A stretch of 64,000 nucleotides of DNA, taken from contig JAQMWT010000190.1 in assembly GCA_029834535.1 (NCBI GenBank), forward strand, positions 1-64,000, in the 5' to 3' direction. The position numbers and the translations under genes were made by a program. Source of the DNA: Chrysophaeum taylorii. Its lineage: Eukaryota > Sar > Pelagophyceae > Pelagomonadales > Pelagomonadaceae. The notes below the pieces were generated by a model that saw only the letters and a program-made list of their open reading frames with translations, searched no databases and had not been told where the DNA came from. Each line of letters begins with the position of its first letter. The first letter of the stretch is position 1. This document shows, one piece after another, positions 17,799 to 52,350 of this stretch.

Positions 17799-18076
17799 AA
17801 CTAAAACTAACTTCAGACCTCTCCCGAGCATGGGAGCCAGGCCGGACCGACAGGAGCCAGTCCGGAATCACGGGCCTGTAGACGAGGAGCGCCGAAAGGT
17901 CGGTCGGCGGAGAGTGACCATCAAGCTTGTCGCCATGCGACGAGGAGACCGCGATGTGACTGACAACCAACTCGTCGATAACCTTCCGTCTTCGCCCCCC
18001 GGCCATACCCCGTCCCACTGCGAACGTTCCGGCTGCCAACCGGCCCGCCCGGGAGGCGACTAGGTGCCAACCTACG
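17799..18076 (-). mobile_element. SINE-like retroposon copy b
   Basis: 278 bp, 5'-truncated. It is flanked by exact 18-bp direct repeats CACAATTCCAGTGATTCT at 17781-17798 and 18077-18094. On the minus strand it ends in a TTAG-like tail. The long target duplication excludes a DNA transposon and points to LINE-type priming. Confidence 0.88.
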
Positions 18077-18440
18077 CACAATTCCAGTGATTCTCAAGCC
18101 ATAAAAGCTGTTCAGGTTATTGCCAGTCCTGGACACCACCCATCTGACGTACCCTACCGTAAGTTCTGTGTGGCTTGCACGATTCATAAAAAACGTTTTC
18201 CCCATCCACACCACCTTATCAAGCAACCATCTTTCGAAAAAAATTTTCAACCTGGCGAAGCCTGGGCATGTGACGGTGGTTACGTCTCTGTGCTCTCGGA
18301 ATGGGGATCCTTTCGACATATCATTGTTTTCAAGTGTCTCATTTCTAAATTTCTGTTAGTGTACTTTTGTCGTAGAACTAACTCCAGCGAATTTTGTAAC
18401 GCCCTTGAGTTTGTCGGTAATTTTTGTTCTACTTATGTTC

Positions 18441-18803
18441 CTTACCCTGATCGCCGACCGCGTGGTTGCGATGGAGGACGGTGCCTCATGAATCCTGAGC
18501 CTTGCGAGGGCATCCGCCCTCCCGGCGTAGGTTGGCACATATTCGCCTCCCGGGCGGGCCGGTTGGCAGCCGGAACGTTCGCAGTGGGACGGGGTATGGC
18601 CGGGGGGCGAAGACGGAAGGTTATCGACGAGTTGGTTGTCAGTCACATCGCGGTCTCCTCGTCGCATGGCGACAAGCTTGATGGTCACTCTCCGCCGACC
18701 GACCTTTCGGCGCTCCTCGTCTACAGGCCCGTGATTCCGGACTGGCTCCTGTCGGTCCGGCCTGGCTCCCATGCTCGGGAGAGGTCTGAAGTTAGTTAGT
18801 TAG
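18441..18803 (+). mobile_element. SINE-like retroposon copy c (full length)
   Basis: 363 bp, starting cttaccctgatcgccgac and ending with three to four TTAG units. It is flanked by TTATGTTC at 18433-18440 and 18804-18811. Copies c and d share the same start, which defines the full-length unit. No convincing RNA polymerase III A or B box is visible, so SINE-like is the safer term. Confidence 0.85.
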
Positions 18804-19419
18804 TTATGTTCATGTACAACTAAAACAAATATATTGTGATTCCTTTAAACCCTATTTATCTCAGCATGTTACAACCCCCTTCCGTGTGGAACATGGTATT
18901 AATATGTCCGCGTTCCCCCCTTGCTTGCATGTCTTTAATCATGAAGTCGATGCCGCTGTTGGTCACATAGCCACTGCCGCGTCTACACGACTCCGGCATA
19001 TGCTTAATGTATCCTACAAAGGTCACCCCCTAACAGATCCGGCACCACACTACCCGTGGGCTGTTATACATGCTATCCAATCATATAATCTCCTCCCTAA
19101 CGTTTCCCTCGAACGTATTTACAATAAAGTCCTAAGCCCCCAACAAGTTTTGTTAGACCAATGTAATGTTCCCCAACAGGACTACCTCAAACCTTTTGGT
19201 TCTGTTTGTTATCTGCATTTGGAACCTAACGAATCTCATAAATATGAACCTCGATGTCGTCCTTACATCTACTTAGGTGGTGCTAATGTTATAAACACTT
19301 TAATAACACCCCATGTTAATCATTTAGCCGATGTTGTCCTTAATCCTGAAAACGGTCAAGTCCGTGTTTCCTCTAAACTGACTTTTCCTCATCTTATTTC
19401 TAAATCTCCTCCTGATTAT

Positions 19420-20380
19420 GAACAACATCCACCTCCCGCACCTTCACCCGACATTCCCTTCTCTGTTCACAGCACCCCCAATGATGCGGCGCAGAGGGGG
19501 AATGCTATGCCTACCGACACTGACCATGAGAGGGTGACTCCTTCTTCTCATCTCCATGCTCCCTCTCCCGCTCCCGCATTTGCTCCAGCTGCTCCTGCAC
19601 CCGCTACTTCCGCCACCACACCTACATCTGAAGTGTCGCCCGACACTCTGCCACTTTTACCATCTTGTCGGTTTCTCTATTCCCAGGATGTCCTCTGTCT
19701 CACCCGTGGTCCTCATCACCCTCAGCCTCGTCGCAAAACCAATCTCAAGGATGTTCTTACTCTTATTGCTTCGCCTACTGTTGCCGCTTATAAACAAGCC
19801 GGTGGTACGCTTGCCGACTTCAAGTATGACCTCTCCAAGCAGCACATAACATTCTGCGACCCCACCCTCCACTCCCTTCATCTCGCTCATGGTATCCACT
19901 GGACGGCTATACCTCCAGAGGGGGAATTTACACCATCCCTTCATCACCATGTGCACCAAGCGATTTCACAGTCCTCTTCAGTTATGTGTCATAGGAGCCA
20001 TAGCCACCCATCGCCTGATGCTCCCCATGTTCACTTCTACGACGACGTCAACCTTGCAGATTTTCACCTTCCTCGAGCTCTCGTTCATTTAATTTCTGAA
20101 CATGCTCACGCCTTTCAAGTTCCTCCCGCTCAATATGCTTATGCTTTGTTCACGCCCCACTCCATTTTGGATCATAATGACGCTTCTTATGGTGCTTCCG
20201 AACCTCATCTCTCCGCCATCGAAGACTATATCACCGTGCAATCGCATTACATCGAAGCCCACCTTGGTGATGCTCCTCTACTAATCGTTCAACTCATCGA
20301 AGATCCCGATCACGATCATCTGCTCGATAATGTCGCTTCCTACGCAATTACTCATCTGACGGCGACTCATGACCCCAGCA
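19420..20380 (+). pseudogene. Integrase-RT linker of copia A1 (fossil)
   Basis: A Pro/Ser/His-rich linker followed by about 250 residues of family-specific sequence before the reverse transcriptase core. The equivalent linker is present in family B at about 52.4-53.4 kb. Confidence 0.5.
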
Positions 20381-20399
20381 CGGTTGGTTCGGACGAATA

Positions 20400-22590
20400 C
20401 ATGATTCAAGCCAAAGATATCAAAATTGATGAATATGAGTTGACCTGCCCCAAAGGTCTCTCAGACGCTGATCGCAAAGCTTATGTTGCTGCCATCTCCA
20501 AAGAGATTTTTGACATTGTTAAGTTTGGCTGCTTTAAACTAGCGCTGCCAATGGTCAACTCAAAGCCGATTGATACCCGTCTCGTCCTACGTATAAAAAC
20601 CAACGCTGCTGGTCAGTACATTAAACATAAAGCACGCCTGGTACTACGAGGATTCTTAGCCTCTCTGGGCACCGATTTCCTCAACACATTCAGCCCTATG
20701 GCACAGCTTACCGGCTTCCGTTGTGTTTTGGCGCTAGCAGCTCATCTGCGACTTCCCGTCTATCATGTCGACGTCCCCAACGCTTTTGTTCAAGCTCCCA
20801 TCGATTCGCATGTCTATGTTAAACTGCCACAAGGCATTTACCTTCTCGATCCCGAAGATACTAAATACCAAGGCCGCCGTCTTCCAAAGCGACTTAAATC
20901 TCTCAATGGATTGCGTCAGAGCCCTGCCCTTAGGAATCAAACCACAAACAGCTTCTTTATTCATTAGGCTACACACGACTTCGAACAGACACATGCATTT
21001 ACGCTAAAGTCCAAGCTGACGCTACATTTCTAATTTGCACGCTCTCAGTAGACGACGTCGTCATTGCTTGTACTTCGGAAACTCTACGTCGTGAGTTCCA
21101 GCAAGCCCTGAAAAAGGAATACTCCGTCGACACCTTCGAGGAAGTCCATACTCTCCTAGGCATGCGCATAACGCGTACAACAGATGGCTCTATATCACTG
21201 GATTGTCAGTCAGGCTAAACTTGACGCGTGTTCGAAGAGTAACTAACTAACTAACTTCAGACCTCTCCCGAGCATGGGAGCCAGGCCGGACCGACAGGAG
21301 CCAGTCCGGAATCACGGGCCTGTAGACGAGGAGCGCCGAAAGGTCGGTCGGCGGAGAGTGACCATCAAGCTCGTCGCCATGCGACGAGGAGACCGCGATG
21401 TGACTGACAACCAACTCGTCGATAACCTTCCGTCTTCGCCCCCCGGCCATACCCCGTCCCACTGCGAACGTTCCGGCTGCCAACCGGCCCGCCCGGGAGG
21501 CGAATAGGTGCCAACCTACGCCGGGAGGGCGGATGCCCTCGCAAGGCTCAGGATTCATGAGGCACCGTCCTCCATCGCAACCGCTGTCGGCGATCAGGGT
21601 AAGGGTACCCCATTTTAATACAGTTACGCCCCACTTCTACACCGATGTCACCATCAACCACGTATAAAACTGGAGAGCCATCTTCTGATATGGACAAGTT
21701 TATTCTTCATACCTTCTCTACCTTACTCGGCAAACTTACTTTTGTCCAATTAGCTTGTCGCCCTGATTTACCCCAAAGCCTTAGTCGTTGCTCTCGAGGA
21801 ATGCATAATCCAGCATTTCTGCATGTTCAAGTACTAACAGGAACGCTCCGCTACTTGCGCAAGCCCGAAATTCGTAATCTTCGCCTCTGGTACTACTCTG
21901 GTTCTTCCACTCTAATGGACCATCTTCGACTTCTTATCGGTAATCGTACTGACATGGCCACCATGTTGGACTACACTAAAGAACAAGTTAATTCAGGTAA
22001 CTTTGATCCACTGGTCGCATTCGTTGATGCCGATAATGCACCTTCTTATGAACAAGACCGCAAATCTACAACCGGCTAGGCTATCTTTTTGTTTGGTTCT
22101 CTCATCACTTGGAAGTCTAAGCTACAACCTATTACAGCTACTTCTACGCATGAGAGTGAACTTATCGGCCTTAATATGTGTGCCGATGATGTGGTTTGGT
22201 TACGCAAATTGGTAACGGAAATGGCATTCGTTATAAATCCTCACTTCTATCTCCGCCAACCTTCAGGGAAAGATCTGCTACTAGATTATGATGCTCACGA
22301 CAATCCCCTCCCATCGGACATGTCGTTCATACGTAACAGTCCTATACTTGGAGATTCGGCCTCTGCTATTCATCTATCAAATAACCCCGACAGCGCGACT
22401 AAGGCTAAAGCTATCAGCACACGCTGGTTCCGTATACGCGACTACGTACAGTTAGAACGAATACGCCTACATCATGTTTCCGGTACCCATAATATCGCCG
22501 ATGGATTTACCAAACCCTTTGGAGCTTCACTCTTCAGCAGATTTCGCACGTTACTCGGCTTACAACAACCCATAGCTCAACAAGATGGTT
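20400..22590 (+). pseudogene. Reverse transcriptase and RNase H of copia A1 (fossil)
   Basis: The RT shows KARLVLRGFLASLG, an FSPMA motif and VYHVDVPNAFVQA, the classic Ty1/copia fingers and palm. RNase H follows, with ATSTHESEL and a final FRIRDYVQ...HHVSGTHNIADGFTKP stretch. SINE copy d lies within the RT-RNase H interval. Confidence 0.85.
21241..21603 (-). mobile_element. SINE-like retroposon copy d (full length)
   Basis: 363 bp, nearly identical to copy c in inverted orientation, with the tail aactaactaactaac at the left. No target duplication is obvious, so the insertion may have been accompanied by local loss of target sequence. Confidence 0.8.
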
Positions 22591-26801: not shown

Positions 26802-26935
26802 CGCAAGAGTGTCATGTGTGTATGAAGTGAACGTGGCATGTGACCTAGTGTCAGGACAGGCGACGTGGCGCGTGCGTGGCGTGTGCGTGGCGCGTGCGTG
26901 GTGTGTCAGTGGCGTGTCACTGGGACAGGCTGGTG
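26802..26935 (-). repeat. LTR of copia C (3' end of element)
   Basis: Apart from the number of cgtgcgtgg units, it is nearly identical to 42311-42466. On the minus strand it runs CACCAGCC...CACTCTTGCG, without the usual TG...CA ends. Confidence 0.75.
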
Positions 26936-27064
26936 CCTCCCCATCCAGCGAAGCGATCAGGTGCGAAGAGAGGGCTGCATGAGGCACGTAAAAGGAGCGA
27001 AAGCGCATCAGAAGGGCGCGAGAAAAAGGACAAGAACAGAGTGAGGTAGGACCTCCCAAGGAGT

Positions 27065-29048
27065 CTAGGAGAGGTGAGGGGTGGCATGACCGGTGAGGAA
27101 GACAGTATCGCGGTCGAAGAGGTCAGCGTCCTCGTTGGAAACGAAGACGTTGGCGTAATTGAGCTTGGTCTTGACGTACTTGTAGGCACAGTCGTACGCA
27201 TCAACTGCGCAAATGAGGGCATTGAGGGCGATACGCAGATGGCGACGGACGATCTTCAGTGCCGGTCGGTTATCACACCATACCGTGGTGCGAGGCGGCC
27301 GGACCCCCTCGAGGGTCTGGATGAGGTGGCGCACGCCAAGAAGGCGACGGACAGTGTGAGACAGGGCTAAGATGGCAACTCAGGCGTGCTGTGGCACGTC
27401 GCAGAGACGCGCCGACTGGCCCCAGAGACGCAGGCCCCCTGGAGGAGAACGGCACCACCGAGACGCGAAAGGGCAGAGCCGTGCGCACCGCGAGCGAGCT
27501 CATAGCCAAGACTCTCGTCCGCGTAAGCAGCGAGGTGGAAGGCGCCCGGTAGGCAGCACAAAACAGGATGCCAAGGTCCCGGTGAGCCGCGAGCCAACGC
27601 AGGGCGCGGTCGAGGGCCCGAGCGTGGCGCTCGGACCACACGTTTACGGCGGTGGCCAGGACGTGAACCGTGCGCGCGAAGGTGGGCAACGTCGCCCGCG
27701 TGAACATGAGCAGACCAAGGGCCTCGCGTGGGTTGCTGGCGAGCGCGGCACGGACGTCGCCGCCGTCGGCCGTCTTGTCGGGTACGTTGGGGTCGACGTT
27801 GAAGTCCAGGTGCATCGGTGTGGCAGGCCCGACCGTGATCGAGCCGTAGCCGAGGTGGCCGAGGACTTTGTCGATGTACGGGCGCTGGTGGGCGAAGACA
27901 GAGCCATCGGCACGGTAGTCGAGGGTGATGCCGCAGATGTCGTGAGCGACGTCGTCCCACGTCATGACAAAACGGTCGCTGAGCGCAGCGCGTACTTCAG
28001 CCACGGCGTCCGGTTGGCCCGCGAGCGGAATGTTGTCGACAACGCTGATGAGTACCGTCGGCGGCCCAGTATCTTCATAGCGGTAGAAGAAGCAGGGGTG
28101 GTACGGCGATTCGAGGAAGCCAAGAAGGCCGAGGTACTCGACGAACGTCTCATACCACTTGCGGCCCGCATGGGGCTGGCCGTAGACAGGCTTGAGCGTG
28201 AGCCACAGCGACCGAGCGGGGTCGTATCGTTGGTCCGGAGGAAGGTCTGCCATGTAGTCGCCAATGTGGCGAGGCGGGCGCATGTAGCGGCGCTCATGAG
28301 GCAGGAGTGGGTGAGATTGGAGGTAGGCGCACCGAGCGTCCCCGGCGCAGGTGACATAGCCGTACCGGTTGCGGACGGCCTCGAAGACGAGCACGGCATT
28401 GTTGTCAGCGCATGGCGACGCGTACGAGGGTGAAACCGCAGTGACGGTACAAGGCGCATCGTCGTGGTCCACCGGGACGGCGAGCGCGTGCGCAGCCTCG
28501 GTCCGTTTGGCCTGAGCCCCGTCGTAGCAGAAGCGAACCTTCTGCGTGCCATCGCGCTTGACGGCGAGGGCGGTAATGCAGCCGACGACCACGGCGTCAT
28601 CAGGGACGTCACGGGCGGCTACAACGCGGATGGCCTCGAATTGGAAGAAGGCGCCGTGTTCCTCGAGGACGGCCGCCGTCCAGCCAGGCGCGTCCGGGCG
28701 GCCACGGGCCTCCCGGAGAGATCGGGGAGCCGTCGGGTCGGGGGGTCCGTAGTCGAAGGCGAAGGTCGAGGGCGGCGCCTCGTGCCAAAAGGCAGGGTCC
28801 TGGTCGTCGTCGAACAAGCCCGGGCCCGGTAGCGGGGCGTGGTCGGGAGCGGGTTCGCCGGCCGACGTGGCGGTCGCGTACGCCTGCGCAATCTTGCAGG
28901 CTTGGGTCAAGGTAGGGGGCGGGGCCGGTGGCCGTGCCGGGGGGTCGGCGTCCGCGAGCGGGGCGGTGGCCGCTGCACGCAAGCTGTCGAGGGTGGTGCG
29001 GAGCAAGTCGGTCGTAACAGGCGTGCCCGGTGCGGCGAGGAAGCGGAC
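27065..29048 (-). pseudogene. Reverse transcriptase and RNase H of copia C (fossil)
   Basis: RT-type sequence with FCYDGAQAKRTEAAH, GDARCAYLQSHPLLPHERRYMRPP and LKPVYGQPHAGRKWYE, typical of copia RT. A short RNase H end follows (TTVWCDNRPALKIVRR, YVKTKLNYANVFV). It encodes a protein strongly rich in Ala, Pro, Arg and Asp, unlike families A and B. Confidence 0.8.
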
Positions 29049-29053
29049 GGTCG

Positions 29054-29369
29054 TGTGGCGGCAACTCCCGCCTCCTAAGGCTTACCCCTCTTCTAGCCCT
29101 CCCCCCTTTTCAGGGGCACCCTACTCCGTTCTGATGATGTCAGTTTTCTCTATGACATCATCTCCCCTGATTTCTGTGTTTCGATAATATCTTAATCATA
29201 AAGCAACGGCCGATCCTCAAGTTGTGAGGACCAGGCACGGAAGTTGTTTGTGGTTGTGTGGCGGTAGAACGGCCATCCTCGTCCAGTGACTCCATCAAGG
29301 GCACGGACGCGAGCGCCGAGCCAGGATTCGAAGGCACGCCAGGTAGGCCTAAATTCTCCTTACGCCACA
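29054..29369 (+). repeat. 5' LTR of the gypsy element
   Basis: The ends TGTGGCG and CGCCACA form perfect 7-bp inverted repeats. It matches 39180-39493. Confidence 0.92.
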
Positions 29370-29371
29370 GG

Positions 29372-29394
29372 TGGTGGAGGAATACGAGATTCGA
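29372..29394 (+). other. Primer binding site of the gypsy element
   Basis: Starts TGGTGGAGGAATACGAGATT two bases after the LTR. Its complement ends in CCACCA preceded by a T-loop-like TCGAATC, so it matches the 3' end of a tRNA. Which tRNA cannot be told here. Confidence 0.65.
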
Positions 29395-29829
29395 GCGACC
29401 ATATCGGTCGCAGCGAACGAGTGCATCTTGCATTCTCTACACGGTCCGGACAAGCCGTGCGCGCCCTGATCAAGCGCGCCGACAAGGAATTCCAGAAGGA
29501 CCACTGCCGTGGGAAAGTCCCCCGGCCGGATACGTTAGTCGTCGGAGGTGACGACGCGCGATTCGGTTCTAGCCGACGCGCAACCCGGGTACCGCTGCCG
29601 CAGGCGAGCGGAGTGAGATCGCAACTCACTGAGGCATTGATTGCCGGGCAGAGACGAATTCTGCCGCCCACCGGACTGATATATCGGTCGGTGGAAGACG
29701 CACGCGACGACGATATTACGCGTGTCGTGGACGAGTAGAAGTCCCAGAGTCGAAGGAGCACGAGAACCACGACGACTCAATCATTTTGGACCCGCTCTGA
29801 TCTCGGCCGATTAGAACGAGCCAGAGCCG

Positions 29830-31560
29830 ATATGGAAGACGATGATGCTGCCGTCGAGCAGATGCGATATGAAGAACCGCCAAGCCGTCAGGATGAGACG
29901 AGCGAGCGGAATGACGATGATGATAATGATGACGATGAAGAAGAGCACGACACGGAAGTTGACGACGAGGAAGAAGAGCTAGACTACAACAACGGCGAGC
30001 CCGCGGAGAGACCGCCGGGAGGACGATCGACAGCTCCGTCAACGCGTGCACGACCCCCGGATGTAACGGGAATGAATGAATTATACGAGGCTCACTTGCG
30101 GGCATTACGCGAAGAGAACGAACGCGCGCAGGAACGACTTTTAAAACAAATAGAAGAAGAAAACGAACGAAACGAGCGGCTACAACGGAAGGAGGCCGAA
30201 GAATTAAGAGAGCAATTGCGTAGGGCCAACGCTCGAGCAGACGACCTCCAAGATCAAGTAGACTCGTTGACACGTGAAAGAGACAAGTTGCGTACGCCGA
30301 GTCGATCAAGGCGAGCGAGCAGCCCGGGGTCCCGAGCTGAGGAAGAGCCGCCAACTACACGATCACGCGCGAAAGCTAGGAAGCCGCGCTATGAAGACGA
30401 CGATGACGAAGAAAAGGAGGAGACGCGTGGCGACGGAAGGATCGACACCCAAGAGTTCTTGATGGGTTTCACGGATCGATTCGCCAGCGCGTTAGCTAAA
30501 CACGATCGCAACAAGGAGCGGCGATCAACCTCCGGATTAAAGACCGAAACTTTTAAACTGGTTCTCGATGGACGCGATCAGGACCAGTTCGATTTACATG
30601 CGGGCGCGGTGATGAGTACGTTAGCCGAAGACCATTTTAGCTTGGAGAAACTACGGTACCTGCTGCCCGCGACCCTGCGCGACACAGTCGCACCGATTTT
30701 TCGAGAACACTTAAAGAAGTACGAAGACCTGTGTAAAGATCTCGATCAACCAGCGTCTTTTTATTTACGTCGGGATATCGACGATGAGGAGTACGGTTCA
30801 GTGGTACGACGATTACGACGATTGAATGAGAAGTATTGCCCCAAGATTTTGAAATATTTCCGAGAGAGTTGCCCACTGCCGGTGACGGCAGAGGAATCGC
30901 TACGAAAGTTGCAAGGCACTACCCAAGCGACCGTTCCGAAACGCTCTTTGGAACGCCACGTGCATACGTATTGCATTAAATTTCAGCAAGAGGCCATGGC
31001 GTACGGCTCTGTGGCCAATCGGGATCTCAACGATATGGAGATCATCTCTTACTTGATACGTGGACTGGAGTCCAGCGAATTGAAATCCCGCGTGCGAACC
31101 ATGCGCAGCGGGCACCCGACGACGTACAAGACGTTTACGTCTACACTGTCATTGATTACACGGCTCGAGAACGATTTCGCGACAGCCATGGCGGTGAAGA
31201 ACAGCCGAAATTCAACGAACCCATCGGGCGGGAAGCTGCAGAAGCCACCGTCTGGACGCGGAGGACGGGCGCTCGCCTCGGGAACGAAAGATAAAACGAC
31301 GAAATATGAAGCATTGCGCCTCGAAGAGAATCCGAAAAGGTGGTTCGAGAGGACATGCAAGGATTGTGGGTTTTTCTTAATGACCCTCGACAAGGATGAA
31401 CACGGGAACCGGGTCATTTGCAACCGCGAGCCTGATGACTATTATGTGTCGATGTGTAAATACATCGAAGACGTCAAAAAGCCCAGCTCGCGAGGACGAT
31501 GGGAGAGCCGACAAAAGAGAGATAATCATTCGCGTGACGACGGCAGTTCTAATGCCACCC
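29830..31560 (+). pseudogene. gag region of the gypsy element (fossil)
   Basis: About 580 codons. The N-terminus is very acidic, with Asp/Glu runs. A strong coiled coil follows (EENERAQERLLKQIEEENER and on to LTRERDKL), then a capsid-like helical domain (FKLVLDGRDQDQFDLHAGAV). It ends with a Cys-rich KDCGFFLM segment. Gag forms the particle around the element RNA in living relatives. Confidence 0.7.
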
Positions 31561-31599
31561 TCGGTTCGAGCTGCTGACGATATTCAGAGCAGGCTCAAT

Positions 31600-32330
31600 G
31601 ATATGGGCACGCAGCTGACCACGGTTATGGATTCCGTGAAGCACTTAAAAGACGGACACGGCCGATCGTCTTCGACACGACCGGGCCGTCGAGATAGCCG
31701 GAGCCCCCGACGCCGCGACAAGAGCCGTAGCAGCTCGCGCCAACGCCGACGGAAAGACAGCCGGAGCTCTAGCAGACATTCACGCCGCCGCCGGCGACGA
31801 AGATCTCGCGATCGAAATTCGGACGGTGGTCGTTACCGGGAAGACTCGGGACATTCGTCTGCCACGTTCGCGTTTACGACCCCTTGCGGTCAACAGTTAC
31901 CATTAGGAGTGATGGTGTACCCGCACACGGACACCCGCACCGAAGACGCAGCCGACGCCCTTGCCGCGGCCGCATTCGAAGATCTTGCTCGCCCGCCGAT
32001 GGACGAGCCACCCAACGACGTGCTGACCGATCGTCGGTCTTTAGCACAGATTTATGAGGAGATGTCGAGCGATGAACTCGAAGATTCGAGCGATGACCTC
32101 GAAGCTCCACGATACTGGGAAGGCGATTCATATTCGGAAGATGAAGAAGCTACACCTTGTGAACCAGTGTCCGCGATAACGTCACTTGACGAGTCGTCCA
32201 CGGACGACGCACCGTTTGTTTTTGAGGAGGAAGCCCTCGACGCTATCGGCTTATCCGTGGACCCTCCGGGGACGACCTTTAGCGACCGAACTGTCTGTGA
32301 GCCAGACATGGATTTCTGCAGTTATAGTCG
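31600..32330 (+). pseudogene. Arg/Ser-rich region of the gypsy element (fossil)
   Basis: A dense run of RS and RR dipeptides (SRSPRRRDKSRSSSRQRRRK, SRHSRRRRRRRSRDRN) resembles the RS domain of splicing factors. Acidic sequence follows. It takes the place where a nucleocapsid would sit and may have bound RNA. Confidence 0.55.
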
Positions 32331-33039
32331 GATGATCATTCGACGGACGAGACGATGACCATCGCGAGTGAAGCAGACGACGGTCCTACGATAGAGTTGA
32401 CGTCGGGGACGACGCGATCTTTTCCTGCGGACCCCCCCGAAACGGTTTCGGTCACGACTTATCGAGCCATGGACACGCCGCCGGAAGAAATGGATAGATT
32501 TAAGAAGAAGATTAGCAGCGTTCTGAAGTGGGACGAAGACGAGCCAACGTGGAACCTGCAGGATTGGTGGACGAGAACTCGGAACTTCTTGCTAAAGAAG
32601 CCACCAGAACAACCGCTCAGCTACGGACTCGAAGCCGCAGCCGACACGGAACCGATCGCCGATGATGGTTATGATCAACCAACGACGAATGAATCTACAG
32701 ATGCGTTCTGGAAAGACGAAATGAATGAGTTATGGGAGAGGTCCTTTGCTTCCGAGAATAGCGAAGATCGGGATCCCCTACCAGCACTGATTCCCTCCGA
32801 GATTGTCTTGGAGGAAGAGCGGGAGCCGCCAGATAAAGAGGCTTCCGCGAGCATTACGCCGATGACGCCAACAACAGATGATAGGAAAGCTCAAGCCGCG
32901 GTGTCGATGCCCAACCCCGGAGATGAGCGAATCAGAGCCCGATGTGCTCACACTTCGTTGACGCCACGAGATGGCAAGACGATCGAAGATGATTTGGTTA
33001 CCCTCACTTGTTTAGCTACGGGTACTCTTGCGTTTATGG

Positions 33040-33420
33040 CCTGCCACATCTACAGGAATCGTGACGGACCGAAATTCTCGACGACCATCGGTGTCGATGG
33101 AATGGCAGATGTTTCTTATATTTGCGGATAAATGGTCAGAAAGTTGGCCAAAGATCAGTTGATTTTCGATGAAGGCGAACTTCCGATTAAGCGCGAGCTG
33201 TACGGATCAGGGTTGAATACGACGACGATCTTTCGTTGGATCGCGATTCGGGTCGCCCTCGCCGACAACATCGCCGCCCCCATTGTAGCTATTGTGGCCG
33301 ATACGAACTATCTGTTCCTGTTGGGAGGGCGCGATATACGAGTTTTAGGAGCCGTCGTGGACTACCCCCACGATCGAATCTGTTTTTATCGAACCCAAGT
33401 CGTCTACGGGCGCAAGAAGA
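33040..33420 (+). pseudogene. Aspartic protease region of the gypsy element (fossil)
   Basis: A DGMADVSYI stretch resembles the retropepsin active-site loop. A later LFLLGGRDIRVLGAVVDY stretch resembles the LLG-D motif near the protease C-terminus. A typical gypsy linker follows, up to about 34.2 kb (EPGRTYNLPVILSKP and similar). Confidence 0.5.
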
Positions 33421-34259
33421 TTAAGTTCAAGGATGAACGAATCGATGCACCCATCGTGACCTTTCGATCTATTTACGATCGAGACCCGATAACCGTGCCG
33501 ATTTACAATCATCAACACGATGCATTTCGGAAGAGTCTCGATCTAGTCAAGACTCGAGTTTACGCTCGCTTGAGCACGATTAAAGATCTCCGAAGCCCGC
33601 CGCCGGAACGAACGGTAGCCTTGGCTACGCGGGGACATGCTACGACCAAATTCTCCCCAGCTCCGGGAGAAGACGCGCGAGGAGTAGTGGCTTACGCTGC
33701 GCGCACGCTTCAAATCGAACCCGGTCGAACTTACAATCTACCGGTTATTTTATCGAAACCTATGGACATGGGACAGGTTTTCGTCGCTACGTTTGCTGAA
33801 AACGAGCAGTTGGGGGTTGTCGAAGGAATGTGTTCTTCTTGCGAAGAGCACGACCGACCCGCTGCTCGGGTTGCGGTTACTGCCGCGGAAGAAGTGCCGA
33901 CGGTCGTCACTCAAGGCGAAGTCCTCGCGATTGGCGATATCGTTCGGTACGAAGATGAGTTGAACGTCTCTACGATCAACGAACTTACGAAGGAATGTGA
34001 AGAAGGATACGACAAGGGGAACCTTTCTTTCACCGTTTCCGTCGCTAGTCATTTGACGCATTGCGACGCGTCTCCCCCGCCGATGTTGCTGAGCACGGCG
34101 CAGAAGGACGCTACGACCGCTATGGCGGACAAGTCCTCCCTCAAACGACCCGAAGGCGACGACGATTTTGCTCGAAGGTCGGAAGAAGACGAAAAGAAGT
34201 GCCGCGAGATCACCGAAGCGGAGATACGCCGCCGATACGAAGAGGTTCAATGGCTTCCA

Positions 34260-35030
34260 ATCACTTATCGCAAGGTGGTTGTGCTGTTCAGTGGAGCCGG
34301 GGGCAGTACTTTAGGTCTCCAACGAGCCAACGAAAGGTGTGGGACGTCGTTTCGAGTCGTGCTAGCACTCGATGCGTCGGACACCGCCAACCAGATCCAC
34401 CTTAAGAATTACCCGAACATTCCTGTGGTGCAGCACACACTGTGTGGTCGCTATGTTACAACCTTACGGTTGATTGAATCTTATTTACACTACGCGGAAT
34501 GGTCGTCGTCGATGTGTGTCGCGTCGCCACCCTGCGTACATTCCGCTCTGTGCAACTTGACTTCCAGAGATGTTGGGAAGGGAGTCACCGCTACCCACTG
34601 GACGATGAAATTATGCAAGATGGCTGGTTTCTTCATGTGGTTGATAGAGCAGGAGGCCTCGATTATTTCTTACGTTGCACGTTTGCACCCTTACGTGTAC
34701 GTCGTCAATTTTTATGACATAACGCCCAGTTTGATGAGCTGTCGCGTGCGATTGTTGGTTTCCAGCCACCCGCTCCATTTGCGCGCAGTTCCAAAGACTT
34801 GCAAGAATATGCAACAAGAGTTCGCCGCCGCACTTGGCTACGCCGACGAACGACATTTACTCCAGATGAACAATTTAGGATCATCACGAGCAGCGACAGA
34901 CGCAGCTTATACCGTTACGCGTGTCCCGCTTCGTGTAGGACCGCACCGTTCCGATTACAGATCTTTGAATCTGAAAATGACTTCGGAGTTGCTGACAATG
35001 CCCCTTGATTTTGATTGGGCCGGCTTCTCC
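34260..35030 (+). pseudogene. C5-cytosine DNA methyltransferase domain inside the gypsy pol region
   Basis: The motif order of C5 methyltransferases is visible. Motif I is VVLFSGAGGSTLGLQRAN, which binds S-adenosylmethionine. A motif II-like stretch is ALDASDTANQIHLKNYP. Motif IV is CVASPPCVHS, holding the catalytic PPC. A motif VIII-like stretch is MSCRVRLLVSS, and the C-terminal motif X-like stretch is LKMTSELLTMPLDFDW. Such enzymes methylate carbon 5 of cytosine in DNA. It lies in one frame with the protease linker, upstream of RT, so it was part of the polyprotein rather than a passenger gene. Cytosine methyltransferases have been reported in retrotransposons of dinoflagellates and a charophyte; whether this one is related is unknown. 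Confidence 0.82.
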
Positions 35031-35619
35031 AGGACGACCTCGTTGAAACACTTGGCGTCCGTCGTGCCACCAGACACGACGGCCTTATTAGTACTCGATC
35101 TGCACAACTCTGTGACCAAGGATTTTCACTTGAGCGGCGAAGCTTTGCCGTCGGCGTTGAGTCCTGCAGACCGACCGTTTGATTATTATTTGCAAATTGA
35201 TGAAACCACCCTTCGTCACGTACAAGTTCCGCTGTTAAACAAGGCACACGTGTCGTAAGATGGGTATCGACTGATGATCTCCAAGATCGCATGAAATGGG
35301 AACCTCCAGAGGTACCGTTGATTCCGCCTGCAACAGATGAGCCGGGGACGTCTCATGCTTCTTCTGCTGCCCCCCCCCCCCGACAACCAAATTTGGATGT
35401 TCCGCCAGATCCTGAGCGAGATCGGGAACCGAAGATCAAGAGCGAGCCGAGCGTTCGTGTCAAAGGCGAGAGGATCAACAAAAGCCACCCGGAAGTGAGA
35501 CTAAAATTATGAGAAAAAGTTTGATGTGCCATGGAAAGATGCGCCGCGCGATGCTGAGGGTGCACCGCTGCGCAAACTCCTGAGCATGTCAAGGATAATG
35601 AAGCCATGAAAGTTCAAGT

Positions 35620-37120
35620 TCCGACGAAGGAAGAAGTTGACAAGGTTGTTCAGGAGCTGGGAATTCCTGACAATCCGCACTTAGATGACGAGGCGAAACT
35701 GATGCTCCGTCACTGTGTGCAATATTCTTGGGCCTTTTTCGACCCGATTATGAGACCGGTGGACTCGCATCCTGTGTCTCTACGATTCAAAGACGCGAAT
35801 CCGCGACCGATTAAGATGACGCCCTACCGATTGACGCCTGCGAAGCTCGATTGTCTCCGCAAGCAGATCAGCGAGTGGCGCCGGGATGGAGTCATTCGTC
35901 CGGCCAACTCACCTTGGGGCTTTCCTGTGTTGATGCTTCCGAAGAAAGGAGCTGAGATTGGAACGTCCAACGCGTTCCGTGCTGCAGTTGACTTACGTCA
36001 GCTCAACGATCAATTGGTCAATGACAGTTGGCCGAACATTCGACAAGATGATGCTTTAGCTTTTCTCGCTATGCGACGATGGCGGACATGCAATGATATT
36101 AGATGGGGATACCACAACCTTCGTCTGGATCCGGCAGCGCAAGACGCTATCACGATGGTTAACCCACTTGGCGCTCATAGTATCTTGCGATTACCTCTAG
36201 GTGTGAAGACGGCCGGAGCTCTTTTCTGCAAGCAAATGGCGAGCGACCTTTCGAGATGGATGTATCGAGACTTGGTTGCGTTTGTTGACGATATTATGAT
36301 GGGATCTGACGATCTTCATCGACATTTGCAAGTTTTGATCGAAGTGATGTGTCATTTGGCACAGAGAGGGTACAGCGGTCGAACCGCGAAGTTCCACCTT
36401 CTCAAGGATGATATAGAATTTCTGGGACACATCTCGACCCCAGAAGGCTTGAAGCCGAATCCGAAGACGCTGGAAGCACTGCAGAAGATGCCGATTCCAG
36501 GTACTTTACCGAATACTTCCCCGAAGACCCAGATACGCTCTTTCATCGGCATGAGTAATTATTGTCGGCGATATGTGAAGGGCTACTCGAAGATCGTGGA
36601 ACCGTTGAGACGATTATGCCTCGAAGGCGCAAAGTTCGAATGGGCGCCCGAGTGTCAGAAAGCTTGGGATACGATTATTGAAGCTTTGGTCGATTCCAGA
36701 GGAGTCCACCACCCCGATTGTGATCTGCCTTTTCAGATCCGATCCGATGCTTCCAAGGATGGACTTGGAGCATATCTCTTCCAGATTGTCGAAGTCAAGG
36801 ACGATGCCGGAAGAGTGACTCGAGAAGAACGAGTGATTGAATATTGGAGCCGAGCTGTGCCGAGGGAGATGCGCAATTACGAACCCCGTCGGCTAGAGCT
36901 GCTGGCAGTTATACTTTCTCTAGAGCACTTTCGAGCCTACATCGAAGGGCACCGGACTGTTTTGGAGACCGATCACCGAAATTTGACGTTTTTACGTAAG
37001 GCGACGCACTTGTCTGGGCAGCTTGCTCGTTGGGCGATGCGCCTCGCAAATTTAGACCCTGAACTTGGTTACAAGCCGGGAAAGTCACCGGGAATGAGTA
37101 TCCCTGACTGTCACTCCCGC
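35620..37120 (+). pseudogene. Reverse transcriptase and RNase H of the gypsy element (fossil)
   Basis: Ty3-type RT: PYRLTPAKLDCLRKQISEW, then RPANSPWGFPVLMLPKKG, FRAAVDLRQLND and the palm motif AFVDDIMMGSDD. The connection domain and RNase H follow (IRSDASKDGLGAYLF, LELLAVILSLEHFRAY, TDHRNLTFLRKATHLSGQLA). Confidence 0.92.
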
Positions 37121-37579
37121 AATCCGATAGATCATGTCATCGAGACTGACGAGTTTGGAGAACCTTTTAACCACGCTTATCTGGTGTTCCAAGAGCTTCC
37201 CCGACCTGTTGATGACCGAGGAATTCCCGCATCCGGCTGCCACTTCATAATGTCGTTTGTTACGACCGAACTGCCGGAAGACGAAGACGAAGACCCTGAA
37301 AAGGACCCGATAAAATTGGCTACGTCTCACGCTACGAGACAACGTCGGAAGAAACGTGCGCGCGATGAGCCACAGATCTTCAAGGACGCAGCCGCTTACA
37401 AAGATTATATCGATAAGATACCCGATAATATGACGCTCGCTGAGATCGCACGTGAGCAAGAATCTGATGCTACTTGCGATATTCGCTACCGAATGGCCCA
37501 AGGTCAGACGCCGCGACGTTCCCGAGCGAACGAACGATTCGAAGTTGTTAAAGACGTTCTTTACCGAATTTCTGCTGAT

Positions 37580-38920
37580 TTGCACCCGATGATTGTTGCA
37601 CCTGCTACGTTGCGCAAGCGCATTATTCGACTCTACCATGGCACTCCGGTTAACGGTGGTCATATGGGACGTCACAGTACCGTCCAGGCTATCCAAGAAC
37701 GATTTTGGTGGCCCCACATGTCGAACGAAGTTGGAGTCTTCATTGCTGAATGTTTAATTTGACAGATAGCTCGTACGCCTGAGCCGAAACGAGCTGGACT
37801 CTTGCAGCAGCCCGTATACGATGGTGATGGTGCTGTTCTTTGCATGGATTTATTTGGACCTTTGCCCAGCGCTGGTCCCGAGACGTATCTTCTAGTATTT
37901 TTTGATCCGTTCTCGCATTTCTTGATTCTGGATGTTTTGAACGATAAGACTGCTGAGTCTGTCCTCGAGTCTTTTGTCATCAACATCCTACTCAAGGGCC
38001 ACTTGCCCCAGATGACTCGTACCGACAATGGGGAAAGAGTTCGTGAACAAGTTGATGCGCGAGTTTTGCCATCTCTTTAACACGCGATACCAGACTACGA
38101 TTCCTTATCATGCCCAGTCGAACCCGGCTGAGCGTGTTAACCGATTTATCAAGGCCTTCCTCCGTGCTTGCCTTCAGGGCCGGAACATCACGGATTGGCC
38201 CGACTTTGCCCATTATATTGCGTTTTGTTACAACCGCAAGTTTATTCCAGGCACGCAGATTTCTCCCTTTATGCTGCGCCTGAACCGTCAGCCGATGCTG
38301 CCGACTGACTACACGCTTATGGACTTTGATACGCGATTGTTGCCGAAGACTCGCTCTGATGCAGTCGCCGAAACTCGTGAACGACTGAAGTATTATACGA
38401 AGATCGTCCGCGAGGCTCGTGATAAAGCTTTGAAGAAACAACGATTGGCATACAATGCTGATCATGCTGATGTTGAGTACAAGGAAGGATCGCACGTTTT
38501 GCTCTATATTCCTTTCCTTCAGAACAAACTTCGACCGGAATGGCGAGGACCGTTCAATATCAAGGAACGCCCTTCCCCGGTCACCTATAGGATTGAGTCT
38601 CTCGACTCTCCGCCCGAAGAACGACGTGTTCATGTTAGTCAGATCACGCCTGTGATGGTACCTCCGATCGTCGATCCAACCATCCGCAAACCCGAAGAAA
38701 CCTTCCGTGATGATTATCAGCACGGTAAATTTGTTCTTTTCCGGATTCCTGACCGGAAGCGCTCTGATTGGCGCAAGAAGATTTATGTTGCCGAAGTTTG
38801 CGAGCCTTACGATTACCTGAATGGTCGTGTTGCTCTACATTCTACTCCGATTTGGGTCCGAACGATGATGACGCTTATTTCAAGCCGACCTCTCACCTTT
38901 CGCACCGCAAGCTCAAGCCC
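37580..38920 (+). pseudogene. Integrase of the gypsy element (fossil)
   Basis: An H2C2-type region precedes a DDE core: GAVLCMDLFGPLPSAGPETY, then RTDNG and YHAQSNPAERVNRFIKAFLR. A C-terminal GPF-type stretch (LRPEWRGPFNIKERPSPVTY) precedes a long tail that runs toward the 3' LTR. Confidence 0.85.
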
Positions 38921-39179
38921 GAGTTAAAGGACGTTGAAGGTCGAAGTTTCACCGACGAGTCCAGAATTTCCTCCAACACAACTCCTTGTGTCACGGATTT
39001 CGCTCCGCACGAGATTGATGTGTTGATCCCCAAGTTTACTTTACGCAGTGGCCGAGTTCCTGAACCGGTCATCACCCGCGTTTACCAGAAGATTCGTTCA
39101 CGAGATGCTCGTAAGGCGAAGCCGCGCTCCTCGCGCTAGCACCTCGCTGGGGCAGCTCGAATTCTTACCAGGGGAGTCC

Positions 39180-39493
39180 TGTGGCGGCAACTCCCGCCTC
39201 CTAAGGCTTACCCCTCTTCTAGGCCCCCCCCTTATCAGGGGCACCCTACTCCGTTCTGATGATGTCAGTTTTCTCTATGACATCATCTTCCCTGGTTTCT
39301 GTGATTCAAGTGTTCTTAATCATAAAGCAACAGCCGATCCTCAAGTTGTGAGGACCAGGCACGGAAGTTGTTTGTGGTTGTGTGGCGGGAGAACGGCCAT
39401 CCTCGTCCAGTGACTCCATCAAGGGCACGGACGCGAGCGGCGAGCCAGGATTCGAAGGCACGCCAGGTAGGCCTAAATTCTCCTTACGCCACA
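39180..39493 (+). repeat. 3' LTR of the gypsy element
   Basis: Preceded by the purine-rich aggggagtcc and followed by the GGTCG target duplication. Confidence 0.92.
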
Positions 39494-39499
39494 GGTCGC

Positions 39500-42270
39500 G
39501 GTCGTGCGCACGAGGCGAAGGTCGTCCTGGACGCAGCCCGGTCGCGGCGCTGGAACAACGTAGACGGCCCCGGGGCCGGCCTCGGGCCGACATCCTAGGT
39601 ATATCCCGATCAAGGCGCGTTCGGCGTTCTTCGCGGCGTCGACGCGGTAGGCAACGAGCGAGCCGTAGGGCGCCATGCCGCTAATGTCCTCGTGCTCGCC
39701 GATGTAGCCGCCGACGACGTTCACCTGGCGGACGGCGTAGAGGTAGGAATAGCCCCAGAATTTGGGATGGAGCACGTTCCGGACCAAGACGTCGTTGGCG
39801 CGCGCCACGTCCAGAATCCGGATGTGGGCGTTATCGGCGGCGTTGACGTGGCGTTCGGGGACGACATACTCGACGGCGAGGCCGGTTGCGGCGGCCGCAG
39901 AACGGAAGTGCGGGTTGTCGAGCTCGCCCCCCAAGTCCGCGCGGAGGGTAGTTGGGTGCAGCCCAGCCGCGCGCGCGGACGCGATGAGCACGAGGAGCTC
40001 CCCCGCCGCGTCGCTTTTCTTGGCGATGAGCGAGCTCGCCAGGCGAGCCGGGCGCCGAAAGGCGAAGTCGAGGCCATACCGCGCCCCTCCGAGCGTCGGC
40101 GGGTTGAAGGGGCCTTGCAAGTCGACCTCAACGACGGCCCCGTCGGGTGCCGAGGTCGCGCTCGTCGTCGTGGAATGCGTGGGCGCCTTGCGTAAGCGGC
40201 CGAGGGTGCAGCAGGTGGGGTGCCGGCATTCCCCGACAGCGGGAAGGCCGAGCCACTTCAGGGCGGCGTCCCGGCGGTCATCGCTGGCGTGGCCGAGCAT
40301 CTGATGGGCGCTGACGTCGTCGAGGCTGAGGCCCGGCATGAGGACCGGGTCGACCGGCCGTGCGCTCGGGTGCTGCAGCATTGCCGCCCCAACGGCATGG
40401 CTCGACGCCACAGCAGCCATAGCACCGGCCAAGACCGCGGTCGCGATGATGGAGGAGACGAAAGCCGAGCCAAAGACGCCGCGCGGCGCGAGCCGGCGTC
40501 CGGCAGCGGCGGTGGCGGCGGCGGCGGCGGCGGGGGCCGCGGCGGTGACGGCCGCAGTGCCGGCCGTCGCCGGTTCGGTCCCCGTGCGCCGGGTGATGAG
40601 CACGTAGTCCTTTCCCCGCTTGATGAGGGGGATGATCTTGCCGTCGCTCGTCTCGAGGCGAGGGCGCGACCCGCTGATGAAGCGCCCCCCGCTCTTGTCG
40701 AACTGGTCGACCGAGAAGAGCCGCGGGAGCGAGGGCGTAATGGCGGCAGCGATGGTGACGTCGATGTGTCCGTCTGTAGTCTGGAGCGTGACGTTCTCGA
40801 TGACGTGTCCACTGACAGCGTGGCTGTGGCGTCCACCGTCGAAGAAGCCGCCCGGGAGCCAGGACAGCCACGTCTTCGTGTAGGAGACCACCGTGCTGTA
40901 CTCGGGCCGCGTGTGGTTGTCGCAGGCGGAGTCGACGAGCCACTCCTCGTAGTCGTCTTGTGGCGCCGCGCGGGCACGGGCTGCCCGCGCCGTTGTGCTG
41001 CACAGGAGCGGGAACGGGACAGTGCGGAGGATGCATGCAAGGCCGGGGACGAGGAGGAGAGCGGGCAGCGCAACACTGCCGTCGAGCCAGGGACCGAGCA
41101 TAGCCCCGGCGGCCACGAAGAGTAACGTCAACGTCAGGTGAAGGGCGCCGGGAGAGACCAACGGTGGCTCGATGCCGCGCGCCATAAATGCGCGCGCGCC
41201 GATGGTGTAACCGGTCCGGCCGGCGTCGGTGGTGCGGCGGGCGGCCGCGGCAGCGGTCGGCGCGGGCTCACGGGCTTGCGGGGCATGCGGGTGCGCCTCA
41301 TGGGGCGGCGCGGCCGGGCGGGCGGGTGGCGCGCCCCGGTACCGGAAAGTCCTCAACTTGCGGAGGTCGCGGATCGAGAGGACGTCCCCGGGCTGCCAGC
41401 CGGGAGCCTTGAGCGGGAAGTCGTCGGTGGTGTGGGTGGGGAAGCGGCAGATTGCGCACGGCATACGGCTCGTGATGTCGGCAGGGCATATGCGGGCGGT
41501 GTGAAAGAGCCCGTAGCACTTGCTGCAGAACGGGACTGGTCCAGTCCGGGCGGAAGTCGTAGTTGAGCGTGGTGCGGCCGGGCGGGACAGCAGTTTGCGC
41601 TGCGGTCTGGCGGGCACGTGCGCGAGAGCCGCCGCGGCTGATATCGGCGTTGCGGCAGTACGTGGTAAAGACCTTGATGAATGTGTCGTACGTGGTGCCT
41701 GTCCGGGCGGACTCAATCGCGAGAAGACGGTGGGCCTCCGCCAGGTCACCCCCCCCCCCTTTGGGTCCCTTGAGGCCCTCGAGGAAGTAGAGCATGCGAT
41801 CCGTGTCGGTGAATGTGTCGCCCAGCGCCTCAAGGGCCGTGATGTTACGCTCGAAGGCCGCGAGGTAAATGTCGGGCGTGCCGAACGAGACGATGGACAG
41901 ATCGTGCAGGTGCTGGCGGAGTTCTGTCTTGCTGTTGAAGGCGAAGCGGTGGCGTAGGCGGTCCAAAGCGTCGGCACCAGTCTGGCAGCGGTCGACAATG
42001 CGCTACGCCTCCGTCGCGGTGCCGCCGCGCAGGAGGCAGAGCAGGAACAGGTCGGCATCGGGCGTCAACGGCGGGGGCCTGATGGAGCCGGCATCATCAT
42101 CCAGGAACTGGACGTAGTCCACGACGTCCTGTTCGAGTTGTCGCAGGTGCGTCGCGTCCTCCACCGCATCACCGTCGGGGGTGAAAGTGCGGAGCAGGCT
42201 GACGATGTCCGGCAGGCGCTTCCGTGCGTCCTTGAGCTCGGTGGCCGACATGACACTCGCGCGCAAGTGG
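39500..42270 (-). pseudogene. gag, protease and integrase of copia C (fossil)
   Basis: From right to left: Gag (DTDRMLYFLEGLKGPKGG), a Cys-rich zinc-knuckle-like segment (CSKCYGLFHTARICP, CAICRFPTHTTDD), protease (EWLVDSACDNHTRPEYSTVV), then the integrase zinc-binding region (HQMLGHA, CRHPTCC) and core (VVEVDLQGPFNPP, ADLGGELDN, NAADNAHIRI). This is the standard copia order. Confidence 0.82.
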
Positions 42271-42310
42271 TAGCGTCGTGCTAGAACACGAACAACATGG
42301 GCCTCATAAC

Positions 42311-42466
42311 CGCATGAGTGTCATGTGTGTGTGAAGTGAACGTGGCATGTGACCTAGTGTCAGGACAGGCGACGTGGCGCGTGCGTGGCGTGTGCGTGGC
42401 GTGTGCGTGGCGTGTGCGTGGCGTGTGCGTGGTGTGTCAGTGGCGTGTCACTGGGACAGGCTGGTG
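42311..42466 (-). repeat. LTR of copia C (5' end of element)
   Basis: Like 26802-26935 but longer by two cgtgtgcgtgg units. It is followed by the CAATT target duplication. Confidence 0.75.
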
Positions 42467-50499: not shown

Positions 50500-52350
50500 T
50501 TCAATCCTGTAAAGGATTGTCGTCAGAGGCATGATGCATACCGAGTAGAGAGCGAAAGGTGGAGAACTCAGCAGCAAGTGGCTTTGTAAAACCATCCGCC
50601 ACGTTCAGCTTGCCGGGAACATGATGGACTCGTATTTTCTGTAGCGAGATGTACTCACGGATTTTAAACCATCTGGTCGACAGTGCCTTGGATCGAGAGG
50701 ACCCATCTGGGTTATTAGAGGTGTGAACAGCGGCAGCATTGTCAGACAAGAGAGGTAGGCTTCTGATGAAGCGCATATCTTCAGCAATTGGGTTGTCATT
50801 GTCATCGAAGTCGACAGGGTCAGCGGTGTTCTCACCATTAGCATTGTTGACGTAGAAGGTGGGGTTGACGACAAAGGAGAGTTCCAACAGCAGCTTGCGT
50901 AGCCAAACAGCTTCATCAGCACAAATACTGAGGGCAATCAACTCAGCTTCGTGAGTTGAGCAGGAGACAATCGGTTGAAGTTTGCTTTTCCAACCAATAA
51001 GGCAGTTGAAAAGATAGAAGACAAACCCGGTGGTAGATTTCCTATCTTCCTGTGCTAAGGAAGGGGCATTGTCAGCGTCAACCATGGCAACTAAGGGGTC
51101 AAACTGTCCAGTAGATACATCCTGCGGTTGGTAGTCGACCACAGTGGATAGATCAATTCGATTAGCGGAGACAGTGCGAAGGTGAGCTTCAATGGCATTA
51201 CCTTTAGGATGGAACCAGAGGCGAAGTGAGCGGTTTTCCGGCTTCTTGAGGTAGCGAAGCAAATGCTCTAGCATTTGGACGTGAACATGTGGGTGCATGC
51301 ATACCACGCGAACATCTGCCCAAGGCTTGCGAGAAGTCAGGTCTGCAGGCAACTTGCATGAACACCAGCTTGCCAAGGAGGGTGGCAAAGTGCGAATTGA
51401 TGTACAACTCTGTTTCAGAGCTGGGAGTGCCATCTTTATACTTGAAGGACGATGACATAGGATATTTAAGCGGGGTCGGTTGCTGCAAGACTGGGTGATC
51501 AGCGAAGAGTTCATCCAGCTTGGCTTGCACATCCAGAGAAATGGAACCGTCAGATGTGCGACACACACGCATGCCTAGGAGGGTATGGACAGGTTCAAAC
51601 TGCTCTACAGCATACCGTTTGCGGAGGGCATCCTGTAATTCAGTACGAAGAGGGTCGTCATTGGACACAATAACAATGTCGTCTACAGACAGACTGCATA
51701 CGACGAACTTAGCATGTGCGGATACTCGAGCATATAGGCAAGAGTCCGAATGCAGGCGTTTGTAGCCAAGGCTACGGAAGAAGCCGTCTATCTCTTTGTT
51801 CCAAAGGGATGGTGATTGCCGAAGTCCATAAAGTGACTTCAGCAGTTTCGGTAGACGTCGGCCCTTGTACTTAGCGTCATCGGGGTCGATAAGCTTGATG
51901 CCGTCTGGTAACTGAACATAGACATTGGCATCGATGTCAGACTGAACGAAGGCGTTCGGGACGTCTGCATGGTAGACAGGCAATTGCTTGTATGCTGCAA
52001 TAGCTAGTAGTACCCGGATTGCGGTCATGGTGGCCATGGGGCTGAAGGTACCAAAGAAATCGGCGCCAAGAGATGCTAGGAAGCCACGTAGTACGAGGCG
52101 AGCCTTGTGCTTAACGTATTTGCCTGCAGAGTCTGTTTTAATCTTCAGCACCATCTTGTTGTCAATAGGGCGAGAGACACCGTCGGGTAAGGAAAGTTTG
52201 AAGCAGCCAAAGCGGATAATGTAGTGGAGTTCCTTGGCGATGGCCTTGAGGTAGGCGTGCCTGTTTTCAGGCGACATACCGCGGAGACACTTGAGTTTAT
52301 ATTCGTCAATGGAAACGTCAGCTTCTTGGACCTTATATTCGTCAGGACCA
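50500..52350 (-). pseudogene. Reverse transcriptase and RNase H of copia B (fossil)
   Basis: RT: KHKARLVLRGFLASLGADFF, VYHADVPNAFVQSDIDANVY, LKSLYGLRQSPSLWNKEIDG and VVCSLSVDDIVIVSNDDP. RNase H follows, with SCSTHEAELIALSICADEAV and a closing FKIREYISLQKIRVHHVPGK. All are standard Ty1/copia signatures. Confidence 0.9.

Follow-up and report, generated by a model that had tools for sequence, protein, structure and literature searches.

We found that a Ty3/gypsy retrotransposon of the pelagophyte Chrysophaeum taylorii, a stramenopile, includes in its Gag-Pol frame, between a protease-like region and the reverse transcriptase (RT), a domain that we take from its sequence to be a divergent C5-cytosine methyltransferase (MTase). 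The domain is a standard part of this gypsy family that predates the split of its two subfamilies, and it is kept by purifying selection along with the rest of Pol. We consider it quite likely that the domain is a selected and enzymatically active part of the element, the activity being inferred. The copy described here lies in the window, by which we mean positions 1 to 64,000 of the forward strand of contig JAQMWT010000190.1 (C190). Genome-wide counts refer to the 70.8 Mb in 697 contigs that we searched. Coordinates are collected in Table 1.

Table 1. Features of the gypsy element, and of one copia-type element, by position in the window.
Feature	Position	Strand	Remarks
Target-site duplication GGTCG, left	29049-29053
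5' LTR	29054-29369	+	316 bp, TG...CA
gag-like ORF	29832-31577	+	identified from its position; no gag family hit in Pfam, and only weak hits to coiled coils
Asp/Ser/Arg-rich linker and start of protease-like stretch	31396-33131	+	split over ORFs 31396-32358 and 32355-33131
Protease-like stretch	33132-33431	+	by eye only, no Pfam match
C5-cytosine-methyltransferase-like domain	34257-35126	+	aa 376-665 of ORF 33132-35258 (708 aa)
Motif I FSGAGGSTLGLQ (SAM site)	34287-34322	+
Motif IV SPPC (putative catalytic cysteine)	34524-34535	+	P, P and C invariant in 23 aligned copies
EQE at the position of motif VI ENV	34647-34655	+	invariant in 23 aligned copies; assigned by eye
Motif VIII-like RVR	34743-34751	+	both R invariant (23 copies); aligned by MAFFT with DNMT2 RxR
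Motif IX/X-like stretch SLNLKMTSELLTMPLDFDW ... LASVVPPDT	34959-35078	+	parts 34959-35018 and 35052-35078; weak, MAFFT alignment
Reverse transcriptase, RNase H, H2C2 integrase zinc domain	35606-37762	+	Pfam
Integrase C-terminal part	38028-38927	+	p58_C and SH3 matches, below cut-offs
3' LTR	39180-39493	+	314 bp
Target-site duplication GGTCG, right	39494-39498
Probable MTase-like domain of a different, copia-type element	15625-16797	+	SPC, MEM, QARER by eye; copia RT in ORF 18796-20964

The element spans positions 29054-39493 and, as a sequence-only reading of the same DNA had recognised, is enclosed by LTRs with a GGTCG target duplication on both sides. The LTRs differ at 12 of 316 aligned columns and have the ends TGTGGC...GCCACA. 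Pfam matches in Pol of the window copy fall in the order RVT_1 (E = 8.7e-11), RT_RNaseH (5.9e-25) and H2C2 (1.3e-13), followed by the weak integrase C-terminal matches. The MTase had been placed between protease and RT; the RT is indeed downstream, but the protease was identified by eye, with no Pfam match to an aspartic protease in the gypsy ORFs checked. The window copy is interrupted, comprising at least six forward ORFs (29832-31577, 31396-32358, 32355-33131, 33132-35258, 35606-37762 and 38028-38927). The linker and the start of the protease-like region form a single open frame in copies such as L034, in which one frame of 1703 aa takes in the MTase and RVT_1 and reaches into RNase H, and open frames around the MTase domain reach 3067 aa in other gypsy copies. 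The MTase is followed by RT in both subfamilies where inspected (L034; C235). By eye, a minus-strand copia-type element of high GC content (ORFs 27273-29006 and 39473-42058) seems to enclose the gypsy element, and 95% similar repeats at 26802-26917 and 42311-42426 bound this nesting region (26802-42426).

The sequence-only reading had described a C5 MTase in pol with motif I, SPPC, and VIII-like and X-like stretches in that order, and our alignments of ORF 33132-35258 recover the same order; the interval it gave, 34260-35030, is correct in location but stops short, the domain continuing to about 35126. The labels I to X follow what we take to be the general motif scheme of these enzymes. The Pfam profile PF00145 (curated cut-off 22 bits) gave a significant though weak match, covering only aa 382-437 of the whole window ORF (E = 4.9e-4, 20.1 bits) and reaching 22.6 bits (E = 8.2e-5) against a 364-aa piece of it; elsewhere it scored 23.8 bits, above the cut-off, for the ORF of the divergent copy L050 and 20.2 bits for L034. 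PF00145 was the sole Pfam family matched in all 23 copies that we aligned (E up to 0.1; best E 9.1e-7), namely the window copy, L050 and 21 of 29 other fetched copies. None of these copies departs from the Cys of SPPC, the Glu of EQE or the two Arg of RVR, an invariance that is favoured by our having picked stop-free copies. Two departures from the C5-MTase consensus are evident: EQE replaces ENV, and the usual Q after PC is absent.

Comparison with a profile of 27 DNMT2 proteins aligned motifs I to IV through SPPC (probability 97%, E = 1.1e-10); for this N-terminal part, motifs I-IV gave an E-value of 5.8e-12, and none of 60 column shuffles scored as high. The C-terminal half alone gave an E-value of 0.12 against the DNMT2 profile, equalled or exceeded by 11 of 60 shuffles. 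Left to itself, MAFFT aligned RVR with the motif VIII RxR and put the LLTMP...DFDW...LASVVPP stretch on motifs IX-X. Motifs VI, VIII, IX and X rest on alignment and conservation, and we assign the second half with less certainty. The CFT region of DNMT2 had no counterpart visible by eye in the MAFFT alignment, for which reason we would not file the gypsy domain as DNMT2 despite the match of motifs I-IV, DNMT2 having been the only family-wide profile compared.

We considered whether the resemblance to a C5 MTase might be due to chance, SPPC and runs rich in glycine belonging to a protein of unrelated origin. The PF00145 match spans only about 56 residues around motifs I-II in the members shown, with a score near the cut-off, and no methyltransferase was retrieved when solved structures were searched with a profile of the aligned copies, both of which would fit a chance resemblance. 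Searches of protein databases with the MTase region of the gypsy element (7997 and 1882 candidates) yielded none at an E-value of 0.001, a search with the single window ORF reached DNMT2 only at E-values of 0.62 and 0.70, and no relative turned up in viral contigs scanned with the MTase domains of gypsy and copia. A structure model built from gypsy copies alone was useless (mean pLDDT 40.4). With DNMT2 rows in the alignment the predicted model improved (pLDDT 60.5, pTM 0.66), and the 50 rows listed by Foldseek for it were all C5-cytosine-type enzymes or complexes with them, the best PDB matches among those listed being DNMT2, then DNMT1, DNMT3 and bacterial C5 enzymes. We give this model little weight, because the DNMT2 rows push it toward C5 enzymes, and it is at most a weak witness against chance. 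By contrast, a DNMT2 profile score unmatched by 60 shuffles, together with the lack of any other Pfam family in the 23 copies, leads us to reject chance resemblance as very improbable.

We searched the genome with the MTase of L050 as query and scored 133 of 1008 candidates as MTase places, a number that may be inflated, since the contig pairs C10/C297 and C25/C521 gave the same scores at nearly or exactly the same coordinates and some places may thus be one locus in two haplotypes or duplicate contigs. The scored places fall into two subfamilies, 66 being 84-100% and 67 being 80-83% identical to L050; the window copy belongs to the latter. The matched MTase stretch is stop-free at 110 of the 133 places and contains a stop at the other 23. 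A first look at the DNA level returned 396 candidates for the MTase segment; an equally long RT segment returned 480, and 40 were scored for each. For six RT places without a partner in the first MTase list, we observed MTase sequence upstream of RT in every case: in one frame in L052 and L053, with the domain covered but a frame break in L051 and L055, ridden with indels in L056, and reduced to the C-terminal third, beside apparent LTR sequence, in L054. The presence of the domain in other genomic copies, on which the sequence-only reading had staked its interpretation, is thereby established.

We then estimated dN/dS among the window copy and L010-L038 (30 sequences, stops skipped), and between these and L050. 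The MTase gave 0.227 within the window's subfamily and 0.055 against L050, with corresponding values of 0.159 and 0.053 for motifs I-VIII, 0.288 and 0.114 for the protease-like stretch, and 0.297 and 0.205 for the linker, the figures against L050 being approximate because dS there (1.4-2.0) is near saturation. For RT, dN/dS was 0.029 in one pair (window versus L057, 340 codons). The purifying selection that had earlier been proposed as a check on the domain is therefore evident in the MTase both within and between subfamilies. The interrupted window copy and the stops at 23 places are what might be expected if the domain had been captured only once, or survived as a fossil, and did nothing for the element; this explanation is contradicted by the dN/dS of 0.055 between two subfamilies and by the 133 scored places, and we rejected it as having a negligible chance of being correct.

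A rival reading is that the methyltransferase fold has lost catalysis and is retained in Pol for a structural role or to bind nucleic acid. The EQE in place of ENV, the unrecognised C-terminal half and the marginal Pfam score all point in this direction. However, motifs I-VIII are among the most constrained parts, and a scaffold would not be expected to retain exactly the Cys, the Glu and the two Arg that are invariant in 23 copies; we regard lost catalysis as rather unlikely. Precedent bears on activity in both directions. As described in the available text of PMC5890265, SymbioDIRS-Dnmt3 domains methylate CG de novo in yeast, which by analogy supports activity of the C. taylorii domain. The Klebsormidium gypsy enzyme produced no methylation in the yeast test, an outcome called inconclusive in that text (PMC5890265), and by the same kind of analogy this result counts against activity of the C. 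taylorii domain.

We favour the reading that the domain is an active SAM-dependent C5 methyltransferase that would be released from the polyprotein or act within the virus-like particle. Given activity, we lean toward DNA as the target, with a confidence somewhat over half. The best alternative is that an active domain methylates RNA, such as genomic RNA or the tRNA that serves as primer, in the way that DNMT2 acts on tRNA, since DNMT2 is the family that gives the profile match; we judge this possible but clearly the less probable target. An RNA target would be consistent with the match of motifs I-IV to the DNMT2 profile, the only family-wide profile compared, and with single-sequence comparisons of the gypsy domain, in which the host DNMT2 gave an E-value of 0.0016 (probability 16%) and the host DNMT5 one of 0.44, neither being strong. 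The absence of a CpG mutational footprint is also consistent with an RNA target, and the part of PMC5890265 available raises RNA as a possible target of LINE-borne enzymes. Against it, the assignment to the DNMT2 class is tentative, the profile comparison having covered DNMT2 only, and the CFT region of DNMT2 lacks a visible counterpart in the alignment.

To look for a footprint of long-term methylation, we examined CpG ratios in the gypsy and copia loci and transitions at fourfold sites in 24 gypsy copies, and observed no sign of CpG decay in either. The gypsy element had a CpG observed/expected ratio of 1.32, and five copia loci had ratios of 1.00-1.02. Transitions of C occurred at a frequency of 0.055 in CG versus 0.044 outside, and those of G at 0.037 in CG versus 0.063 outside, showing no consistent excess in CG. 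The absence of CpG decay tells against CG methylation of these copies that was dense and mutagenic over time, and is compatible with cDNA being methylated transiently. The location of the MTase next to RT in Pol suggests that it would be delivered to the particle in which cDNA is made, and we propose that the enzyme most likely methylates cytosines of the element's own new cDNA, close to RT. The methylated copy may then be taken by host defences or chromatin for resident DNA. The purpose of the methyltransferase is the least certain step of this proposal.

We also searched the genome for other methyltransferases with PF00145, scoring 123 of 474 candidates and obtaining 57 matches, of which we read 14. 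The two best matches are host-type genes. The first, on contig C634, is DNMT2-like: several of its database neighbours are named tRNA cytosine38-C5 methyltransferase, and its ORF is identical over 360 aa to CTAYLR_008533 of C. taylorii. The second, on contig C621, is DNMT5-like and matches PDB 7r76 (named Rad8 there), which we take to be Cryptococcus DNMT5, over 640 residues (E = 3e-143). All 12 other places read (L003-L008 and L041-L046) are copia elements with one same MTase domain, 70-94% identical to that of L041. At five of the 12, the sequence read includes a protease-like DGGAS motif, and copia RT was found at three (by Pfam in L041, by eye in L042 and L043); the MTase of L045 is without motif I. 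Pfam matches in L041 are PF00145 (E = 1.1e-7, aa 349-475) and RVT_2 (E = 1.6e-38, aa 1686-1933), with rve at aa 1016-1110 below the cut-off (E = 0.0061), giving the domain order of Ty1/copia elements with the MTase before the integrase.

The L041-type MTase has the motifs AGGLHQEGF, LPC and IVENV, and its profile matched that of DNMT2 with an E-value of 1.8e-4, or 5.5e-5 in a comparison in which the best of 60 shuffles reached 0.015. A PDB sequence search with the copia profile retrieved M.HhaI-type enzymes only at E-values of 0.07-0.24. Among six copies (15 pairs), dN/dS for this domain was 0.087-0.147. By eye, L041 and its relatives have a further conserved region between MTase and integrase, and a similar stretch seems present in a second copia family, of which one copy lies in the window.

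This second copia family probably also carries a C5-MTase-like domain, judging from its motifs. The window copy spans 13303-20964 (+), and 106 of 1204 candidates for the family were scored genome-wide. By eye, its ORF 15625-17385 contains the motifs LLCSGMSTP, SPC, MEM and QARERW. We grade the domain as probable because Pfam is silent on it (15625-16797) and its match to the DNMT2 profile is weak (E = 0.0036, best of 60 shuffles 0.019). Its dN/dS was 0.044-0.094 against five other copies, with dS up to saturation, and 0.122 for L058 versus L059. Homology between the gypsy domain and the two copia domains was undetectable, with 7, 11 and 23 of 50 shuffles scoring at or above the observed value. 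Direct repeats of 99% identity (17805-18077 and 21249-21521) lie around the RT part of the window copia element. A related copia element at 51207-55475 (-), with an RVT_2 match (E = 4.9e-42), has 158 aa behind the MTase position that are 37% identical to the family at 13303-20964, with no MTase upstream of that 158-aa stretch.

Constrained C5-MTase-like domains occur in a gypsy and a copia lineage of LTR elements and probably in another copia lineage, which raises the idea that retroelements are this alga's source of new cytosine methylation. DNMT5 is a maintenance enzyme, and the retroelements, if active, would write methylation de novo for the host DNMT5 to copy. We consider this unlikely; it draws on the 14 of 57 PF00145 matches that were read (two host genes and 12 copia).

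MTase-bearing retrotransposons have already been published from dinoflagellates and a charophyte, precedents that the sequence-only reading had correctly named, and the C. taylorii gypsy is a further variant. PMC5890265, in the text available, describes SymbioLINE, SymbioDIRS-Dnmt3 and KnitGypsy-Dnmt3, with Ka/Ks below 0.2 for the gypsy. KnitGypsy-Dnmt3 of Klebsormidium nitens is alike in being an LTR gypsy with a C5 MTase inside the Pol frame, several copies and purifying selection. It differs in having a charophyte host and a domain that clusters with Dnmt3, whereas the C. taylorii domain is very divergent, has EQE for ENV and was compared with a DNMT2 profile only. SymbioDIRS-Dnmt3 and SymbioLINE-Dnmt of dinoflagellates are likewise high-copy retrotransposons with a C5 MTase, that of DIRS methylating CG in yeast, but they are DIRS and LINE elements rather than LTR gypsy or copia. 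No copia element carries the domain among the systems covered by the available text of PMC5890265, which says that Symbiodinium Copia elements lack a DNMT domain, in contrast to the copia case in C. taylorii. The accessible part of PMC12344493, citing that dinoflagellate and charophyte work, places DNMT3 members in 'LTR Copia and DIRS' elements, and by this wording the copia case may count as already printed.

Other mobile elements carry DNA methyltransferases of a different enzyme class. PMC6338049, as far as its available text goes, reports DAM- and DCM-encoding retrotransposons in stramenopiles among others, the two types being unseparated, and the corresponding part of PMC12477816 reports an N4C/N6A-type enzyme in the Sola1 transposon of Ectocarpus. 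The DIRS elements and other algal transposons described there resemble the gypsy element in being mobile and MTase-bearing, with Sola1 as a stramenopile example, but their N6A/N4C enzymes are of another class, and PMC5890265 in its available text calls adenine methyltransferases structurally unrelated to C5 ones. DNMT5 has been placed in pelagophytes in the text available from PMC9998398 and PMC3145265. None of the titles and abstract openings covered, most subscription journals lying outside that scope, described C5-MTase retroelements in pelagophytes.

Overall, our data add LTR elements of a pelagophyte, among them a Ty1/copia family, to the retrotransposons known to bear an MTase. The unusual recurrence of a similar arrangement in several lineages of one small genome suggests that carrying the enzyme has been repeatedly useful rather than an accident. 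The assembly of strain NIES-1699 (71 Mbp, 702 contigs) derives from Nanopore and PacBio sequencing of the alga in culture according to the available part of PMC10366177, in whose main text the words 'retrotransposon', 'transposable' and 'repeat' are absent; the effect of a possibly self-methylating retroelement on its own and host DNA is thus directly testable. The window also contains two ORFs at 4314-6446 and 57698-60214 (-), of 711 and 839 aa, that are by eye nearly identical over most of their length; they have no Pfam match at an E-value of 0.01 and are probably a repeated mobile-element gene. A further ORF at 9660-11726 (-) matches FAST_1 (E = 3.9e-23), with no single passing stretch, and may encode a repetitive protein; repeats spaced by 111 bp are located in the same region, at 11518-11929.
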